NCBI GenBank assembly: GCA_002786785.1
Contig: PCUD01000171.1
Span: 1 to 56,689, forward strand
Direction of reading: 5' to 3'
DNA: 56,689 bases
DNA from: Ignavibacteriales bacterium CG18_big_fil_WC_8_21_14_2_50_31_20
GTDB lineage: Bacteria > Bacteroidota > Ignavibacteria > Ignavibacteriales > Melioribacteraceae
Under the pieces are notes generated by a model. That model was not told where the DNA came from and made no database searches. It was given only the letters and a program-made list of their open reading frames with translations. The number at the start of each line of letters is the position of its first letter. The stretch's first letter is position 1. A program made the position numbers and the translations under genes. This document shows positions 1 through 9,747 of this stretch, piece by piece.

Positions 1-230
1 AATCTGCTTAATTCTTTTTTATATTTGATGGTACCTTTTTGGTGAATATTGCCGGCTCTTTTTCGTGAATATTAACACCCAAATTCAAAACTTAGAGGCT
101 CCTTTGAGGTTTTCTAATGCATAGATTGGGGTAAATAAATTATCCGAAAACAACCTCAGAAATATTGTTTCTCCAGAATAAAAAGGGATAAAAAAAGTCG
201 AAATGCCAATTTTTGTTTTAAAACAAAAAA

Positions 231-1873: not shown

Positions 1874-3985
1874 ATGTCCCAAGAGGAAAAAGTGAATAAT
1901 GCTCAAAGAGGACAAGGGCGGGCAATGGCTGATATCGTAATTTGGAAAACTAAAGAAGACAAACTTAAAGAAAATAGTCCATCAATAGTTATTGAATGTA
2001 AAGCGGAACATTTAACAATAAGAGAAGAAGATTTTTTTCAAGGCTATAACTATGCTTCATGGGCTGGTGCTGATTTTTTTGTAACAACAAATCTAAAAGA
2101 AACAAAAGTTTTCAAAGTACAAAAAGGAAAAATACCCAAAAGACTTGATGAAATTGTCGATATTCCTGATGCTAAAATAATTGATGACAAGAAAAAAGTA
2201 AGTGAATTACTAAAGCAAACAAAAGCATTTACAAGAGATGAATTTTCAAAACTACTTTTCAAATGTCATAATATTATTAGGAATAACGACAAACTTTCAC
2301 CTGAAGCGGCTTTTGATGAAATTAGCAAAATTTTGTTTATTAAAATTAGATATGAACGAACAAATGACGGTACTCAAATATTTTCTATCGAAGAATTTAA
2401 TAAAGCACGAGATAGTTATGAAAAATATAAGCATAAAGATGGTTTAGACTTTTATCAATTATTATTTGAGCAAACAAAGGAAGATTTTAAAGGGGATGAT
2501 CTATTTGAGAGCCACGAAAAAATAAATATTAAACCAGGCAGCTTTGAGGCAATTGTAAAAGAATTACAAAAATATAACCTTTCTACAACATCTGATGACG
2601 TAAAAGGAATTGCCTTTGAAAAATTCCTCGGTAGAACTTTTAGGGGTGAGTTGGGACAATTTTTTACACCCAGACCTATTGTTGACTTTATGGTTGAAAT
2701 TCTTGACCCCGAAGAAGGGGAAATAATTTGTGATCCTGCATGTGGCAGTGGGGGGTTTTTAATAAAAGCTTTTGAATATGTGAGAACAAAAATTGAAGAC
2801 GAAATTCAAATAGAAAAAGAAAAGATAAAGAAAAAGTTTTATAATGATGAATATATAAAACTTTCAGAGATTGACAAAGCTAAAATAGATAAGAAAGTTA
2901 ACAAACTATTCAACAACCTAAATTCTGAATTGGATATTTATAATGAAAGAAGCAGATTAAGAGAACTTTCATATGATTGTATTTTTGGTACTGACGCAAA
3001 CCCCAGAATGTCCCGTACAGCAAAAATGAATATGATTATGCACGGCGATGGTCATGGTGGTGTGCATCATAATGATGGATTACTTAATGTTAACGGAATT
3101 TTTGAAAATCGTTTTGACATAATTTTAACAAATCCTCCATTTGGTTCTAGAGTTGAAAAATCATCCAAAATAACAGAAGCCGATAAATTTACAGACCAAG
3201 TAAGAATTAAAAAATATCAGAAAAGATATGGAGCTGCATATGACAAAGCAATGGAACAAGTTACTGGAAATATTGGGAAATCCATTTTAAGTCTATATGA
3301 TACTGGTGAAATGAGTGCTTTAACTGAAGTTCTATTTATTGAAAGAAGTTTAAACTTGTTAAAACATGGTGGTAGGATGGGAATTGTTTTACCTGAAGGA
3401 GTTTTAAACAATAGTAACTTGCAAAAGATACGTGACTATGTAGAAAGTAAAGCAAAAATTCTTTTAATAACTTCAATACCGCAAGATGTTTTTATTGCTT
3501 CTGGCGCAACCGTAAAACCAAGTTTACTGTTTTTTAAAAAATTTACGGAGGATGAAGTAACTATATATACAAATATAGTTGAGGACACACAAAATGAAAT
3601 AAATGTAAAATATGAAAAAGAGTTAAATGCAATTAAGATAAAACTTGAATTAAAAGGAAAAGATAGACTAGACAAAGAGACGATTACAGACCTTAAGAAA
3701 CAATTGAAAACTTTAGAACTGAAGTTAGAAGTAGAAACTAAGGCTAAAATTAAAGAGAAATTCGATTATGAAATACCTATTGCAGAAGTCGAAAAAGCTG
3801 GAATTAGTACAACTGGGACAGAAATTGAAAATGAGTTAATACCTTTAAGCAAAGAGTACTCAAAATATCGCGTAAAGAACCAATTATGGAAAAATGTATT
3901 TGACTCAATTACTTATAATATTTCTGATGAAGAAAAACTATTACGCATATCAAAAGTAAGTGAACCAGTAGAGATTTATGGATAA
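1874..3985 (+). CDS. hsdM: Type I-like DNA methylase with N-terminal nuclease-like domain
   Basis: This is an N6-adenine DNA methyltransferase of the HsdM class, read from the first ATG after the internal TGA. It holds most of an HSDR_N-type PD-(D/E)xK fold: Asp20 in ADIVIW and E41-C42-K43 in VIECK. The methylase core follows, with GQFFTPR near 260, motif I DPACGSGGF at 287-295 and motif IV NPPF at 420-423. The C-terminal third is Lys/Glu-rich and probably helical, as is usual for contacts with HsdS. It overlaps hsdS by 8 bp. The first 47 codons of the intact gene, including a Glu-rich helix of the nuclease-like domain, lie upstream of a stop codon, so the nuclease part may be inactive if translation starts here. 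The TTG and GTG alternatives between 1862 and 1874 have no better ribosome binding site. A fused nuclease-methylase would explain why no HsdR gene follows. Confidence 0.88.
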   Translation: MSQEEKVNNAQRGQGRAMADIVIWKTKEDKLKENSPSIVIECKAEHLTIREEDFFQGYNYASWAGADFFVTTNLKETKVFKVQKGKIPKRLDEIVDIPDAKIIDDKKKVSELLKQTKAFTRDEFSKLLFKCHNIIRNNDKLSPEAAFDEISKILFIKIRYERTNDGTQIFSIEEFNKARDSYEKYKHKDGLDFYQLLFEQTKEDFKGDDLFESHEKINIKPGSFEAIVKELQKYNLSTTSDDVKGIAFEKFLGRTFRGELGQFFTPRPIVDFMVEILDPEEGEIICDPACGSGGFLIKAFEYVRTKIEDEIQIEKEKIKKKFYNDEYIKLSEIDKAKIDKKVNKLFNNLNSELDIYNERSRLRELSYDCIFGTDANPRMSRTAKMNMIMHGDGHGGVHHNDGLLNVNGIFENRFDIILTNPPFGSRVEKSSKITEADKFTDQVRIKKYQKRYGAAYDKAMEQVTGNIGKSILSLYDTGEMSALTEVLFIERSLNLLKHGGRMGIVLPEGVLNNSNLQKIRDYVESKAKILLITSIPQDVFIASGATVKPSLLFFKKFTEDEVTIYTNIVEDTQNEINVKYEKELNAIKIKLELKGKDRLDKETITDLKKQLKTLELKLEVETKAKIKEKFDYEIPIAEVEKAGISTTGTEIENELIPLSKEYSKYRVKNQLWKNVFDSITYNISDEEKLLRISKVSEPVEIYG

Positions 3986-5333
3986 GATAAATACAATTCA
4001 AAAATCTTATATTAAATATATTCCATATTCTGGGCTAGGTAAATGGTATGTAAGTTATTATTTAAATCCTTACATAATAGAAAGTCAGTACCCTTTGATA
4101 TCATTAAAAGAAGTAATTGAACCACTACAAGAAAGAATTAAAAAGGATGACTATACTGGTGAATTACAAGTTGTAAGCAAAATTAGTTTTAACGATGGAA
4201 GAATTCATTTGAGAAATGAAAATAAAACGGGAATGGATTTATATGTAATGCCAGTAAACCAGTTATTAGTTTCAAAAATTAATTTTCATCAGGGGGCAGT
4301 TGCAATTAATGAGAAGTCAAAATTAGTTTGTTCAACCCATTATCAACCATACAAAATAAAACATAAAAGAATAAATGGAAAATATCTTGTAAGAGTATTA
4401 AGAAGTGATGGTTTTTTAAATTTCATTAAGTACTTAAGAGCCGATGGAATTAAGAATGAAGCTACTTATGAATTTATTGGACAATTGAAAATTCCTCTAC
4501 CTCAACTAGCAGAACAAATTAGATTAGTTAATTCTTATAACAAAAGAATAATGCTTGCCGAAAAGCAAGAAAGAGAAGCAAATCAAATTGAGAAAAATAT
4601 TGAGAATTATCTTTTGGATACTTTAGGGATAAAGAAATTAGATAAGAAAGAAAGTAAAAAAGGGTTGCAATTTGTAAGGTTTAATATTATTGAAAGGTGG
4701 GCTGTTGATTTTCTAAATAAAGAAGCACTTATTTCAGCGTTATTAAAGGGAAAATATAAAATTATTAAATTGCGAGAATTTATAAATTTGTATCAATATG
4801 GTCTTTCTGAAAAATCATCAAAAGAAATTGTCGGTATTCCAATGCTAAGGATGAATAACATTAATAATTCCAGACTTTCTATTGAAAAATTAAAGTACAT
4901 TTCTATTAGTGAGGATGAAGAAGAAAAGTATCGTCTTAATAAAGGCGATTTGTTGTTTAACAGAACAAACAGTAAAGAACTTGTTGGTAAAACTGCAGTA
5001 TTCAATGAAAATGAGGATTATACTTTTGCTTCCTATTTGATTCGTGTAGTAGTTGATAAAGAAAAAGCGAATGTTAATTATATAAATTATCTATTTAATT
5101 CACCTTTGCTCCAGTATCAAAAAGATATGGTAAGTCGTCAAATAACAGGTCAAGCAAATATCAATGCTCAAGAAATGCAAGAATTTTTATTTCCATTACC
5201 ACCATTGCATATTCAAAATGAAATTGCTAATAACATCGATAATATGAATGGTAAAATAAATACTCTTAGACTGCAAGCAAAAGAAAACCGAGAATTAGCA
5301 ATTGAAGAATTTGAAAAGGAGATATTTCAATGA
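3978..5333 (+). CDS. hsdS: Type I restriction-modification specificity subunit
   Basis: This DNA-recognition subunit would guide the HsdM partner to a bipartite target. The 451 residues show two target-recognition units. The first runs to about residue 165, ending in a QLKIPLPQLAEQIRL segment followed by a charged helix (about 170-210). The second starts near 235 and ends in FPLPPLHIQNEI followed by a second helix (about 415-450). The repeated 'P-L-P-P-L-x-x-Q-x-x-I' type boundary is typical of HsdS. It overlaps hsdM by 8 bp at its start and overlaps the next gene in ATGA at its end, so the four genes are probably one transcript. The stop is TGA, showing that TGA is read as stop in this genome. 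Confidence 0.9.
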   Translation: MDKINTIQKSYIKYIPYSGLGKWYVSYYLNPYIIESQYPLISLKEVIEPLQERIKKDDYTGELQVVSKISFNDGRIHLRNENKTGMDLYVMPVNQLLVSKINFHQGAVAINEKSKLVCSTHYQPYKIKHKRINGKYLVRVLRSDGFLNFIKYLRADGIKNEATYEFIGQLKIPLPQLAEQIRLVNSYNKRIMLAEKQEREANQIEKNIENYLLDTLGIKKLDKKESKKGLQFVRFNIIERWAVDFLNKEALISALLKGKYKIIKLREFINLYQYGLSEKSSKEIVGIPMLRMNNINNSRLSIEKLKYISISEDEEEKYRLNKGDLLFNRTNSKELVGKTAVFNENEDYTFASYLIRVVVDKEKANVNYINYLFNSPLLQYQKDMVSRQITGQANINAQEMQEFLFPLPPLHIQNEIANNIDNMNGKINTLRLQAKENRELAIEEFEKEIFQ

Positions 5334-6760
5334 AAATAAAAGAATTGTGGATAGAGAAATATAAAATACTAGAAAAATTCAAGATTACTTTTGATAGTCA
5401 ATTGACAGTAATGATTGGAGAAAATGGGGCTGGAAAATCAACTATTATTGAGATAATAGCAAAAATATTCTACGATTTGTATTTACATTTTGTTCTTGGT
5501 AAGGGTTCTAAACCTGAAGATGATTTTAAATTACGATATGATATTGAGTACGAAAAGGTAGTATATGAAGTTTATATAACCGCAAATAAAAAAACAAAAG
5601 AATATTATGAAGTGAATATTGCTGGCGATGGAAAAGCATCAAAAAAATTCTCTAAAGCAGAAATAAACAACCATTTTATAAATGGATACAAGAATATACT
5701 TCCACAAAATGTTGTTATGTATTACGCGGGTATATCAGAAATATTACTAAATAGGTTTAAAGAATTTCAGAAAGAATTTATTCTAGATTCTTTAGATGGG
5801 GAAATCAAAATTGAACAACCGTTTTTCTATTTTCAACCCCAAAACTTATCAACTATACTTATTGGATTATTGAGTTATCAGTATGGGGGAATTCCAGGGA
5901 CACTGAAAAAACAATTTGGAATTTCAGAATTTAAGGAAATTACGATTACAATAAAAAAACCCAATTGGGCAAAATCACCTTCTTCGGATAATTTTTGGGG
6001 TAGTCTTGGTGATTTAAAAGTTTTTTTAGGGAAATTAAGAGAGGCTTGTAATAAGGAAATTGTTGTTGAAAATGGAGCAAGTTTTATTTTTACAACAAAA
6101 GAAGAACTTGAAGAGGTCTGGAGTTTTTATGGCGAAGAAAAACACATATTCAAATATCTTAATATTTTACAAGCAAATGACTTAATTGAAAATATTGAGA
6201 TTATTTTGCTTCACAAGAAAAAAGAAATATCTTTTGAAAGATTAAGTGAGGGTGAAAAACAATTTTTAATATTATATGGTTTAAAGGAATTACTAATTAC
6301 TGATAATTCAATATTTTTATTAGATGAGCCTGATACTTATCTGCACCCTGCATGGCAAAGAGATTTCGTTAAATCTTTAATTGATATGGAGGATACAAAA
6401 ACTAATTACTTGATTACTTCGCATTCACCAAATATAATTTCAGGGTTGAAAAGAGAACAACTTAGAATTTTAGAAAACATAGAAAACAAAACCAATATAC
6501 GCGATTTTTCGTTTAATCCTTATGGTCAACCTGTAGATAGAATTTTAATAGATTATTTTGATCTTAAGGGTTTGAGGTATATAGATGTTGAAAAGGAAAT
6601 TACTGAATTACAGGAAATGCTTACTCTTGACAAATTCAATTTAGAAGAATTTACATCTCTTTATACTAAGCTGGAAAAATTAATAGGCAAAGATGATATA
6701 GATTTACTCTCAATAAAACTTGAAAAACTTAGAAGAGCGAACTTAAATGAGAAAAATTAG
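5330..6760 (+). CDS. PtuA-like ABC-type ATPase (OLD/AAA_21 group)
   Basis: This 476-residue ATPase has an ABC/SMC-like head. The Walker A is GENGAGKST (residues 30-38), the signature LSEGEKQF begins near 305, Walker B is FLLDEPDTYLHP with D332/E333, and the switch His365 lies in LITSHSP. There is no TOPRIM domain, unlike OLD nucleases. The order ATPase then small HNH nuclease is that of Septu (PtuA-PtuB), and of the retron effectors that use the same pair. In Septu the ATPase forms a ring or horseshoe that holds the nuclease and senses infection; whether this copy does so is inference. It overlaps hsdS by 4 bp and the nuclease by 14 bp, so it appears to take the slot where HsdR would be expected. 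It could also be a generic AAA ATPase of another defence type. Confidence 0.8.
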   Translation: MKIKELWIEKYKILEKFKITFDSQLTVMIGENGAGKSTIIEIIAKIFYDLYLHFVLGKGSKPEDDFKLRYDIEYEKVVYEVYITANKKTKEYYEVNIAGDGKASKKFSKAEINNHFINGYKNILPQNVVMYYAGISEILLNRFKEFQKEFILDSLDGEIKIEQPFFYFQPQNLSTILIGLLSYQYGGIPGTLKKQFGISEFKEITITIKKPNWAKSPSSDNFWGSLGDLKVFLGKLREACNKEIVVENGASFIFTTKEELEEVWSFYGEEKHIFKYLNILQANDLIENIEIILLHKKKEISFERLSEGEKQFLILYGLKELLITDNSIFLLDEPDTYLHPAWQRDFVKSLIDMEDTKTNYLITSHSPNIISGLKREQLRILENIENKTNIRDFSFNPYGQPVDRILIDYFDLKGLRYIDVEKEITELQEMLTLDKFNLEEFTSLYTKLEKLIGKDDIDLLSIKLEKLRRANLNEKN

Positions 6761-7361
6761 TAAGGGAAGACACTCAACTTTATTCGATACTTTTATAACA
6801 ATATATGCACCTACGGTATGGGAAGATATACACGAAATAGGTGTACCCAAAGATGCACATGAAGACACTAAATTACAAATATTAATCGATGAACAAAATC
6901 AACTATGTGGATATACTGAAATTTATATTAATGAAATTGAAGAATGCCACATTGATCATTATAAAAAAAGAAGCATGTTTCCTGAATTAACATTTGAATG
7001 GGATAATCTAATTGTTGCAAGAAAAGATAGTTTGTTCGGAGCCAATTACAAAGACCATCAATCAGGCATCGGTATAAATGATTATTTTTATATTTTGAAT
7101 CCTGTGACTGATAAAGTTGAGAATTATTTTGAATATACTCCTTGGGGTGAGATAATACCTAAACCAGATTTATCTGAAGTTGAAAAAGAAAAAGCAATAA
7201 AGACAAAAGATGTTTTTAACTTGAATCATCGCTCATTAAAGGACAGAAGAAAAAATATTATTAGACTTATTAATGATTACGCTACATTGGGAAATCTTGA
7301 TATTTATTCTGCTCTGGAATCGTCTGGGTTCACAAGTGTTAAAAACCAATTGTTAACATAA
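6747..7361 (+). CDS. PtuB-like HNH endonuclease
   Basis: This 204-residue protein resembles the HNH nucleases of the TIGR02646/PtuB group. The core is C54-G-Y-T, then C67-H-I-D-H71, then PELTFEWDNL with Asn87, then GANYKD. Relatives typically read CxYC ... IEH ... WDNL ... C..CN..K. Here the His-x-Asp-His and WDN parts are kept, but the second Cys of the first pair and the Cys pair of the last element are missing, so the structural zinc site looks degenerate. It overlaps the ATPase gene by 14 bp, implying translational coupling. It probably cleaves DNA or tRNA when released or activated by the ATPase; this is drawn from the family, not shown by the sequence. Confidence 0.72.
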   Translation: MRKISKGRHSTLFDTFITIYAPTVWEDIHEIGVPKDAHEDTKLQILIDEQNQLCGYTEIYINEIEECHIDHYKKRSMFPELTFEWDNLIVARKDSLFGANYKDHQSGIGINDYFYILNPVTDKVENYFEYTPWGEIIPKPDLSEVEKEKAIKTKDVFNLNHRSLKDRRKNIIRLINDYATLGNLDIYSALESSGFTSVKNQLLT

Positions 7362-7512: not shown

Positions 7513-8475
7513 ATGGGAAAGAAAAAAGGTGGAAAACCAACAATGCAATCAACTGAAAAATTATTAGCTAAACTAACCAAAGAATTAGGAAAACAAAATT
7601 TTATAACAGAGGATGACCTAAACAAATTCATGGAAGAAAATATAATTGGTAATGAATTAGATTTCGATGAAGAGGAGCAACTAACTAATTCTCAAAAAGC
7701 CCAAGAATTAGTTTGGGATGCTTGGGAATTAGAAGAGCCTGAAGATAGAGTTGAACTTGCTTTAAAAGCACTTCAGTTAGATGATAACTGCGCAGATGCA
7801 TATAATTTATTAGCTGTGGATAAAGCAAAAAGCTATTTGGAAACTCTAAACTATTATTTAAAAGCAATTGAAGCAGGCAAAAAAACTCTTGGAAAAGATT
7901 TTGCAAAATTTAAAGGAGCCTTTTGGGGTTTTCATGAAACACGACCATATATGAGAGCAATGGACGGGCTTGCCTATACATTTTTGCAAAGTGATCAAAT
8001 TGAAAAAGCTATTGATACTTGGAAAGAAATGTTAGTGCTAAACCCTAACGATAATCAGGGCGTAAGATACAACTTAATTACAGTTATGCTATCAGTAAGG
8101 AAATATAAAGATGTTGAAAAATTAATTAGTGATTTTAAAGACGATGCTTCGGCAACTTGGTTATATTCAAAAGCGTACTTGTTTTTTAATCAGAATGACA
8201 AAAAACCACTAGCAACAAAAGCTTTGGTAAAAGCCATGAAGTTTAATCCATATGTTCCTCTCTTTATTTTCGGTTTAAAAGAGATGCCTGAGGAGTTACC
8301 TGAATATATAGGCTTTGGTGATGAAAATGAAGCAATAGAATATGTGAATTCTGCAGTCTATTTATGGGGTACAAACAAAAAAGCGTTTATGTGGCTTGTA
8401 GATACTCATAAAAAAAATGTTGAAGAATTAGATGCTATTATTGAAAAAAAAGAAGGTAAAAGAAAAAATATATAA
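7513..8475 (+). CDS. Tetratricopeptide-repeat protein, ST7-like
   Basis: This 320-residue cytoplasmic protein has no signal peptide. The first 60 residues are acidic and unstructured-looking. Helical repeats follow: AYNLLA near 97, a TPR at about 145-190 with FWGFHETRPYMRAMDGLAYT and a second unit LNPNDNQGVRYNLI, then further helices. The FW-F-ETRPYMRA pattern is shared with the ST7/SecC-associated TPR family found beside defence and regulatory genes. The ribosome binding site is AAGGA eight bases before the ATG. It is separated from the nuclease gene by 150 bp and may be an independent cargo gene. I cannot name a partner or function. Confidence 0.7.
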   Translation: MGKKKGGKPTMQSTEKLLAKLTKELGKQNFITEDDLNKFMEENIIGNELDFDEEEQLTNSQKAQELVWDAWELEEPEDRVELALKALQLDDNCADAYNLLAVDKAKSYLETLNYYLKAIEAGKKTLGKDFAKFKGAFWGFHETRPYMRAMDGLAYTFLQSDQIEKAIDTWKEMLVLNPNDNQGVRYNLITVMLSVRKYKDVEKLISDFKDDASATWLYSKAYLFFNQNDKKPLATKALVKAMKFNPYVPLFIFGLKEMPEELPEYIGFGDENEAIEYVNSAVYLWGTNKKAFMWLVDTHKKNVEELDAIIEKKEGKRKNI

Positions 8476-8577: not shown

Positions 8578-8661
8578 TTCAGGATATTACCTGAATAATG
8601 TTTTGAATAATTCAGGCAATAACCTTATATTTACAATTAATATTTAAGGATATAACCTGAT
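8578..8661 (+). promoter_or_regulatory. Three-operator promoter of the mobile mystery pair
   Basis: An 18-bp palindrome occurs three times at exactly 33-bp steps: TTCAGGATATTACCTGAA (8578-8595, perfect outer 6-bp arms), TTCAGGCAATAACCTTAT (8611-8628) and TTAAGGATATAACCTGAT (8644-8661). A promoter of the -33/-7 type sits among them: TTTG at 8602-8605, a 20-nt spacer, TATATTTA at 8626-8633. Operator 2 thus lies between and over the promoter elements, and operator 3 covers the ribosome binding site (AAGGA) and the ATG at 8660. The natural ligand is the HTH protein encoded next, acting as autorepressor. Part of operator 3 could be shared with the ribosome binding site by chance. Confidence 0.75.
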
Positions 8662-9121
8662 GAATCAAAAGAATAATTTGCAAATTAAACAATTAGATAA
8701 AAAGTTATCTAAGATGAACGAGCTAAAAGAAATAGCAGTTCCACAAAAGGGTTGGCTTTATGCTGTGCGTAATACTCTTAATATGTCGCTTAAACAATTT
8801 GGAAATAGATTAAATATAACGCCACAAAGTGCAAAAGAGATTGAGGAAAGAGAGATTAATAGAAACATTACACTTAAAAATTTAGCCGATGCGGCAAATG
8901 CTCTTGATATGCAACTGGTCTATGGATTAGTTCCAAAAGGCTCTTCAATAGAATCAATAATAGAAAAAAATGCTAAGCGAGTAGCTCGTGAAATAGTAAT
9001 GAGAACATCTCATACAATGAGCTTAGAAGATCAAGAAAATCTTCCAGATAGAATTTCAATAGCAATTGAAGAAAAAGCAAATCATATAAAAAATGAATTA
9101 CCAAGGTATTTATGGGATTAG
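8660..9121 (+). CDS. Mobile mystery protein A, XRE-type HTH regulator
   Basis: This 153-residue protein matches the family called mobile mystery protein A (TIGR02612). The HTH runs from about residue 33 to 80: LNMSLKQFGNRLNITPQSAK, then EIEEREINRNITLKNLADAA, and MQLVYGLVPK follows it. The C-terminal half (95-153) is helical and charged. These proteins sit on mobile or variable DNA and are encoded together with a Fic protein; the arrangement resembles a toxin-antitoxin pair with this gene as antitoxin or repressor. It overlaps the Fic gene by 10 bp. Three palindromes precede it and are the likely autoregulatory sites. Confidence 0.9.
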   Translation: MNQKNNLQIKQLDKKLSKMNELKEIAVPQKGWLYAVRNTLNMSLKQFGNRLNITPQSAKEIEEREINRNITLKNLADAANALDMQLVYGLVPKGSSIESIIEKNAKRVAREIVMRTSHTMSLEDQENLPDRISIAIEEKANHIKNELPRYLWD

Positions 9122-9708
9122 AAATTGAATATCTACCAGGACAAACCCCGCTTGACCATGATGAGCTTGAAGGATTAAAAATTCCAACCATTACCACTCG
9201 TGGTGAGCTGGATGAATTTGAGCAGCAAAATATTGAACATGCTGTTGAGTGGACACTTAAAAACAAATTCAAAGCTGATAAGATTTTGACAGTTGAATTT
9301 ATTAAGACTTTGCATAAAAGAATGCTTGGTGAAGTATGGCGTTGGGCTGGCGAATTTAGAACTACAAATAAAAACCTTGGTGTTGATAAATTTGAAATTC
9401 CCATCGAGCTAAGAAATCTAATTGATGATACAAAATACTGGATAGAAAAAAGTGTTTTTAAACCTGATGAAATTGCTATTAGATTTAGCCACAGAATTGT
9501 GAAGATTCATCCTTTTCCAAATGGCAATGGAAGGCATTCAAGACTAATTGGAGATATTTTAGCTAACCACGTTTTTAGCCACGATGTCTTTTCTTGGGGT
9601 GGAGAAAACCTTGAAACTAAAGGTGAAGCACGAGCATTGTATTTACAAGCTCTTCACGAAGCGGATAAGAATAACTACACTAAATTAATACACTTTGCAA
9701 GACAATAA
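9112..9708 (+). CDS. Mobile mystery protein B, Fic-domain protein
   Basis: This is a Fic (filamentation induced by cAMP) domain protein of 198 residues, matching mobile mystery protein B (TIGR02613). The active-site loop HPFPNGNGRHSR (133-144) is a full HxFx(D/N)GNGRxxR motif, so AMP or another nucleotide transfer from ATP to a target protein is chemically possible. W-WAGEFRTTNKNLGVD near 78-92 is the usual upstream Fic segment. I do not see a clear (S/T)xxxE(G/N) inhibitory helix in either partner, so inhibition may work through the partner protein in another way. The target is unknown. The gene starts inside the end of gene A, implying coupled translation. Confidence 0.92.
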   Translation: MGLEIEYLPGQTPLDHDELEGLKIPTITTRGELDEFEQQNIEHAVEWTLKNKFKADKILTVEFIKTLHKRMLGEVWRWAGEFRTTNKNLGVDKFEIPIELRNLIDDTKYWIEKSVFKPDEIAIRFSHRIVKIHPFPNGNGRHSRLIGDILANHVFSHDVFSWGGENLETKGEARALYLQALHEADKNNYTKLIHFARQ

Positions 9709-9721
9709 ACGTGAACAAAAA

Positions 9722-9747
9722 AAAGCACCGTTTTTAGGCGGTGCTTT
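9722..9747 (-). terminator. Terminator between convergent fic and M16 genes
   Basis: AAAGCACCG (9722-9730) and CGGTGCTTT (9739-9747) form a perfect 9-bp stem with an 8-nt loop. On the minus strand the stem ends in a run of eight T residues, so it is a strong terminator of the M16 operon. On the plus strand only TTT follows, so termination of the Fic transcript would be weaker. Confidence 0.85.

Follow-up and report, generated by a model that had tools for sequence, protein, structure and literature searches.

Evenly stepped dyads over the mobile mystery A/B promoter: candidate operators of protein A with a geometry kept across phyla

Genes and features of the A/B locus

The window, i.e., the whole stretch of 56,689 nucleotides analysed here (contig PCUD01000171.1 of Ignavibacteriales bacterium CG18_big_fil_WC_8_21_14_2_50_31_20), lies in a probable defence island that also carries other mobile genes. 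Within it lies a two-gene unit encoding the mobile mystery proteins A and B, preceded by three similar 18-bp sites with promoter-like elements among them and followed by a terminator-like hairpin:

8578..8595, no strand: candidate operator O1, TTCAGGATATTACCTGAA, on the 5' side of the -33 box; direct-repeat family D1
8602..8605, + strand: TTTG between O1 and O2, promoter element of -33 type, from sequence
8611..8628, no strand: candidate operator O2, TTCAGGCAATAACCTTAT, which fills the spacer of the promoter
8626..8633, + strand: TATATTTA (TAnnTTT), promoter element of -7 type that overlaps O2 at its right end, from sequence
8644..8661, no strand: candidate operator O3, TTAAGGATATAACCTGAT, just 3' of the expected transcription start and covering the first two bases of the ATG (8660-8661)
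8660..9121, + strand: mobile mystery protein A, 153 aa, XRE/lambda-repressor-type helix-turn-helix (HTH) with C-terminal helices; TIGR02612, PF01381 HTH_3
8819..8845, + strand: codons for A residues 54-62 (TPQSAKEIE), predicted recognition helix (55-66 in the model), best covariation with the half-sites
9014..9034, + strand: codons for A residues 119-125 (TMSLEDQ), conserved C-terminal motif and candidate Fic-inhibitory segment
9112..9708, + strand: mobile mystery protein B, Fic protein, 198 aa; TIGR02613, PF02661 Fic; Fic fold in the model
9508..9543, + strand: codons for the Fic motif HPFPNGNGRHSR of B, with Asn at the canonical Asp/Glu position
9722..9747, + strand: hairpin AAAGCACCG...CGGTGCTTT 3' of B, resembling a terminator and closing the two-gene unit, from sequence

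Protein A scores 130.2 bits against TIGR02612 (cut-off 122.6), which together with HTH_3 makes up its only profile matches, and the adjoining protein B reaches 246.5 bits against TIGR02613 (cut-off 124.4); the two genes overlap by 10 bp. A sequence search of the PDB with A returned weak HTH matches only. Its AlphaFold2 model (pLDDT 92.6) contains a helix at residues 55-66, and the fold matches in the PDB are HTH structures, including those of HipB and HigA, mainly covering residues 26-93. Outside the HTH, the C-terminus of A carries a near-invariant TMxLExQ segment (L122 and E123 in 60/60 homologues, M120 and Q125 in 59/60) as well as an invariant W152, and the region is likely to be the contact with B.

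The same segment bears some resemblance to the Fic-inhibitory motif [S/T]xxxE[G/N], the corresponding canonical Fic motif being HxFx[D/E]GNGRxxR (PMC5033356). At positions 119-123 of A, [ST]xxxE is found in 52/60 homologues, usually with Asp as the next residue, and the full inhibitory motif occupies positions 119-124 in 13/60. Protein A of the window reads TMSLED here, which contains [ST]xxxE but departs from the full class I motif by the Asp that follows; a relaxed form of the class I inhibitory motif is possible. Protein B deviates from the canonical Fic motif as well, as HPFPNGNGRHSR has Asn in place of Asp/Glu. This Asn is kept in 50/52 B homologues, at a position where AMP-transferring Fic proteins have Asp/Glu, and the chemistry of B may differ from AMPylation. 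The second arginine of the Fic motif, R144 of B, is invariant. A further match of B, with 77 bits at best, is to PDC-S04, a candidate defence family of PADLOC.

Upstream of the sites, the gene at 7513-8475 encodes a TPR protein with ST7/TPR-like matches. Further upstream, positions 1874-7361 hold four overlapping or near-overlapping genes. Their products are an adenine methylase-like protein with a restriction-like N-terminal segment (by eye), a specificity subunit of type I, the Septu/retron-type ATPase PtuA and the HNH nuclease PtuB. A separate HsdR was not seen within 1874-7361, and these genes may form a methylase-guided Septu-type defence operon.

Three dyads placed over a promoter

A preliminary description of this DNA had placed three 18-bp sites at 8578, 8611 and 8644 in exact 33-bp steps, and both the sequence itself and a repeat scan confirm this arrangement (start-to-start steps of 33 + 33 bp). 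The sites had also been called palindromic. Dyad symmetry is indeed present but imperfect, with 7, 5 and 6 complementary pairs of 9 in O1, O2 and O3, respectively. Likewise, their location near the same face of the helix is right only to the extent that a step is about three turns, since at 10.5 bp per turn it corresponds to 3.14 turns and the sites drift by ~50 degrees per step. The operator consensus yields 6 strand hits in the 56.7-kb window compared with 0.71 expected, a number reached in 0/100 shuffles, and a scan for any array with lags of 19-60 returned O1-O3 as the sole three-copy array of the whole window. In the 3.8-Mb genome, zero-mismatch matches to the consensus are confined to O1-O3. 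A search of this genome for a wider regulon gave one-mismatch single sites only, in numbers no greater than with a reversed-pattern control, which rules out a larger regulon of the operator consensus in this genome.

Promoters of Bacteroidota are characterised by a -33/-7 pattern with the elements TTTG and TAnnTTTG. The promoter-like elements TTTG and TATATTTA, separated by a distance of 20 bp, fit this pattern and bear out the suggestion of a -33/-7 promoter among the sites, with O3 starting a few bases past the expected transcription start. Promoter offsets were also counted in the 36 homologous arrays that have their last site near the ATG: in 20/36, TAnnnT starts at the end of site 2 with the offset seen in the window, and in 12/36 a TTG precedes site 2 by 8 bp, again as in the window. 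The start codon, in contrast to its earlier description as lying inside the third site, shares just its A and T with O3, and this overlap is not conserved in relatives, the last-site centre of clean arrays lying anywhere between about +0.5 and -26.5 with respect to the ATG. Start-codon occlusion as a conserved mechanism was thus rejected in general, as the position of the last site varies. As relatives do not preserve this O3/start-codon overlap, transcription is more likely to be the regulated step.

Array geometry in the A family

Loci of A were collected from 395 genomes of the phylum of the window, from 398 genomes of Pseudomonadota (around a Paraburkholderia genome) and from a scan of 84,980 species genomes plus plasmid records, and clustering at 70% protein identity resulted in a non-redundant set of 66 A genes. 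For each of these, the best three 18-bp windows within 150 bp upstream were scored at every lag from 19 to 55. The best three-copy lag was 33 bp in 45/66 A upstreams and 32 bp in 9/66, compared with a lag of 33 being best or tied in 47/616 upstreams of other ORFs from the same loci. Once the dyads were aligned, 42 arrays proved clean, of which 33 contain three sites, 7 contain four and 2 contain five. Their steps measure 33 bp in 81 cases and 32 bp in 14, without any others; the step of the clean arrays was seeded with 32-34 bp, while the lag scan of the 66 upstreams was unrestricted in that respect. Clean arrays stem from Bacteroidota/Ignavibacteria, Pseudomonadota, an Armatimonadota MAG (L041) and Celaenobacter (L038). 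Additionally, two dyads at 33 bp can be made out by eye on an Agrobacterium Ti plasmid and a Rhizobium plasmid (L127, L130). Among the A genes linked to a B gene, 14/56 fall below the array threshold, some of them with weaker arrays visible by eye. With its three similar dyads at a 33-bp step over the A promoter, the window itself conforms to an array type defined by three or more such dyads at 33 or 32 bp. At another locus (L036:2350-2500), four dyads at 33 bp lie in one open frame, so that the stop-to-stop translation displays the array as a peptide repeat of 11 residues.

Within arrays, the sites are 70% identical compared with 31% expected from composition, whereas the linkers, with 38% identity, stay at the 37% expected. 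As linkers are at chance while sites are alike, recent tandem duplication does not explain the spacing. Selection keeps site and pitch and leaves the linker DNA free.

Half-sites covary with the recognition helix of A

In contrast to the geometry, the half-site varies by clade (TAAGG, GTCAA, GATAA, GCTCA, GCTTC and others), with the following pairs of half-site and helix:

TAAGG/TCAGG half-sites: helix T.QS.KEIEERE
GTCAA half-site: helix TKQ
ATAA/GATA half-sites: helix SQPR
GCTCA/CATA half-sites: helix APSR
TATCCC half-site: helix RNST
GCTTC half-site: helix GST

For a quantitative assessment, a 9-residue window was slid along A in 37 arrays picked for clear dyads, and half-site distance was compared with the distance in that window after whole-protein distance had been regressed out (partial Mantel test), no region being chosen beforehand. 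The A window 54-62 ranks first of 145 with a partial r of 0.38, a value reached in 0/5000 permutations, the permutation maximum over all A windows having its 99th percentile at 0.305; the partial Mantel test lessens the effect of shared ancestry here but does not remove all phylogenetic structure. Analysed separately, Bacteroidota (n = 22) gave window 55-63 as the best one with a family-wise p of 0.002, and the other phyla (n = 15) gave window 54-62 with a p of 0.031. The best-covarying window coincides with model helix 55-66 of A, which in the AlphaFold2 model would represent the recognition helix of a lambda-repressor-type HTH.

Since half-site changes follow this helix, A is very likely the protein that occupies the array and an autorepressor of the A-B operon. 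The earlier proposal that the sites are operators of A over its own promoter is hence supported by the recurrence of the array, its promoter placement and the helix covariation. The expectation that the 18-bp motif would recur upstream of other A genes was right for the array geometry, which is found in several phyla, but not for the motif, the sequence of which changes. With geometry conserved and half-site not conserved, a search with the exact motif would fail beyond close relatives.

Pairing of A with B

A B gene above the cut-off was detected in 34/395 genomes of the phylum of the window, and all 34 also contain A, while several A genomes among the 395 are without B. At 113/124 A loci, B is present on the same strand. 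The locus thus combines a two-gene operon of a regulator/antitoxin and a toxin-fold protein with a putative toxin gene that is never found without the putative antitoxin gene (34/34 genomes), so that A/B looks like a type II toxin-antitoxin pair, for which A is proposed to act as antitoxin and repressor in one and B as the toxin.

Arrays above the threshold are found for 42/56 A genes with adjacent B compared with 0/10 without (Fisher p 9e-6, kinship not corrected). One member of the B-less set (L101) has two sites by eye, and another locus (L016) has a full three-site array though its genome gave no B match. The contrast, being dependent on the threshold, hints that B matters to the array. 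In an array study of Mesorhizobium loti, a mobile mystery B gene was among the 50 most heat-induced genes with an M-value of 4.02 (PMC3989490). This is in keeping with what would be expected if stress relieves repression, albeit in another species.

Proposed mechanism and alternative explanations

Based on the array, its family-wide geometry, the promoter placement, the helix covariation and the dependence of B on A, all computed here, we consider it likely, with a probability of about 0.8, that the three dyads are operators of A mediating cooperative, switch-like repression of the A-B operon and that A neutralises B. Each 18-bp dyad would be bound by probably one A dimer, with helix 54-62 reading the outer half-sites. 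Dimers on the three sites, centred 33 bp apart, would thereby sit before the -33 box, in the spacer and past the transcription start, and the occupied O1-O3 ladder would block RNA polymerase and keep the operon repressed. Cooperativity, which the preliminary description had predicted together with tight autorepression, is deduced from the fixed spacing, and the tightness of repression is likewise a deduction: the step of 33 bp (32 bp in some clades), about three helical turns, would be kept by contact between neighbouring dimers, which may touch directly or via a bridge, possibly B, making repression cooperative and switch-like. Protein-protein contact between neighbours would call for such a combination of fixed pitch and free linkers. 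Most likely, A also neutralises B through its conserved C-terminal region, and if A were lost, the promoter and B would both be released.

What exactly occupies the array is the point on which alternatives differ most. Possibly, although the odds are somewhat against it, the array is chiefly bound by an A-B complex in which the Fic protein bridges A dimers (conditional cooperativity) and A alone binds weakly. Such a role of B would account for above-threshold arrays at 42/56 A genes with adjacent B and 0/10 without, and it has a precedent in E. coli Phd-Doc, where two adjacent operators are bridged by the Fic-fold toxin (PMC13034048). However, the B-less set is small, composed of divergent A proteins and threshold-dependent, and within it L101 shows its two sites by eye. 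Moreover, the three-site array of L016 is intact in a genome without B match, and the model of A has enough extra helices that A-A contacts could form unaided. A switch like that of lambda CI, with A both activating and repressing and the occupancy of O1/O2 tuning the promoter, appears unlikely: O2 fills the promoter spacer, here and in relatives, leaving little room for activation of this promoter, even though such behaviour is known of XRE-family phage repressors acting on three or four 18-bp sites, one example being the regulator of a prophage toxin-antitoxin system, whose 18-bp palindromes are equally spaced (PMC8630535).

Two further explanations would deny A or the spacing any role. That the sites serve another host regulator, or are of iteron or recombination type with A as a bystander, would suit a window that lies in a probable defence island with other mobile genes, but is very improbable given that site sequence tracks the recognition helix of A itself, that the genome holds no further perfect sites and that the place relative to the promoter is conserved. 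Even less credence is given to the 33-bp step as a functionless by-product of tandem duplication of a promoter segment. Regular spacing is typical of duplication or slippage, and copy number does range from 3 to 5, yet the linkers are no more alike than composition predicts (38% vs 37%) next to sites of 70% identity, and the same step is found in several phyla despite very different operator sequences. As the origin of the spacing, tandem duplication is ruled out by linker divergence.

Beyond repression by A of its own operon, the A/B operon may represent a modular ladder promoter, in which a rigid A-dimer assembly (perhaps Fic-bridged) would freeze the 33-bp pitch, the operator word would be re-coded together with the helix, and the numerous orthogonal repressor-operator pairs created in this way would let several copies coexist on mobile elements without cross-talk. 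This broader idea is put forward tentatively, at slightly less than even odds.

Implications

In the accessible text of open-access papers naming the two families, no account was found of the regulation of mobile mystery A/B, including the array described here. One paper each calls a TIGR02612 protein, adjoining a Fic gene in a cas locus, an antitoxin and files TIGR02613 among the Fic/Doc toxins. While XRE autorepression at several dyads is of a known kind, a 33-bp pitch that stays frozen while the operator word drifts in step with the helix appears undescribed for the A family as far as searchable. A widespread "mystery" family thereby gains a specific and testable regulatory mechanism, along with a genome-derived helix-to-half-site code open to domain-swap tests. 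As operator geometry is conserved across phyla and sequence is not, ordinary motif searches miss the array. If the proposed mechanism is true, the 33-bp ladder would provide a sequence-independent signature for intact A/B pairs, and the diversified operators would constitute a ready set of orthogonal repressors.

Comparison with known systems

In Phd-Doc, as in A/B, the gene of a small DNA-binding antitoxin precedes that of a Fic-fold toxin. Phd, however, is not an XRE/HTH protein, and Doc is much smaller than B and has a different Fic motif; with HTH_3 and TIGR02612 as its only matches, A is not a Phd-type antitoxin. Phd-Doc is autoregulated via adjacent palindromes, on which the E. coli toxin can bridge antitoxin dimers (PMC13034048), and these palindromes number two (one in E. 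faecalis) compared with the A/B ladder of three at 33 bp. Class I Fic modules such as VbhTA and EcFicTA likewise consist of two genes with that of the small protein first, and the folds of VbhT and EcFicT are matched by the B model. Differences concern the residue after the motif Glu of the antitoxin (Gly/Asn compared with Asp in A of the window) and the toxin motif (Asp/Glu compared with Asn in B). Furthermore, A has an HTH and an operator array, whereas the EcFicTA paper makes no mention of DNA binding.

In the HipBA and HigBA systems, the antitoxins have the lambda-repressor fold and act on palindromes to repress their own operon, and the HTH of A resembles HipB and HigA. In contrast to B, their toxins have folds other than Fic, and in A the PDB matches extend over no more than roughly residues 26-93. 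To our knowledge, family-wide fixed 33-bp steps have no counterpart in HipBA/HigBA. In the lambda system, sites are spaced by ~23-24 bp and serve two divergent promoters, unlike A/B with its one operon and 33-bp step. Nevertheless, lambda-type repressors and PaaR2 of prophage CP-933P share with A/B the arrangement of three or four equally spaced dyads of ~18 bp, XRE-bound, over a promoter (PMC8630535).
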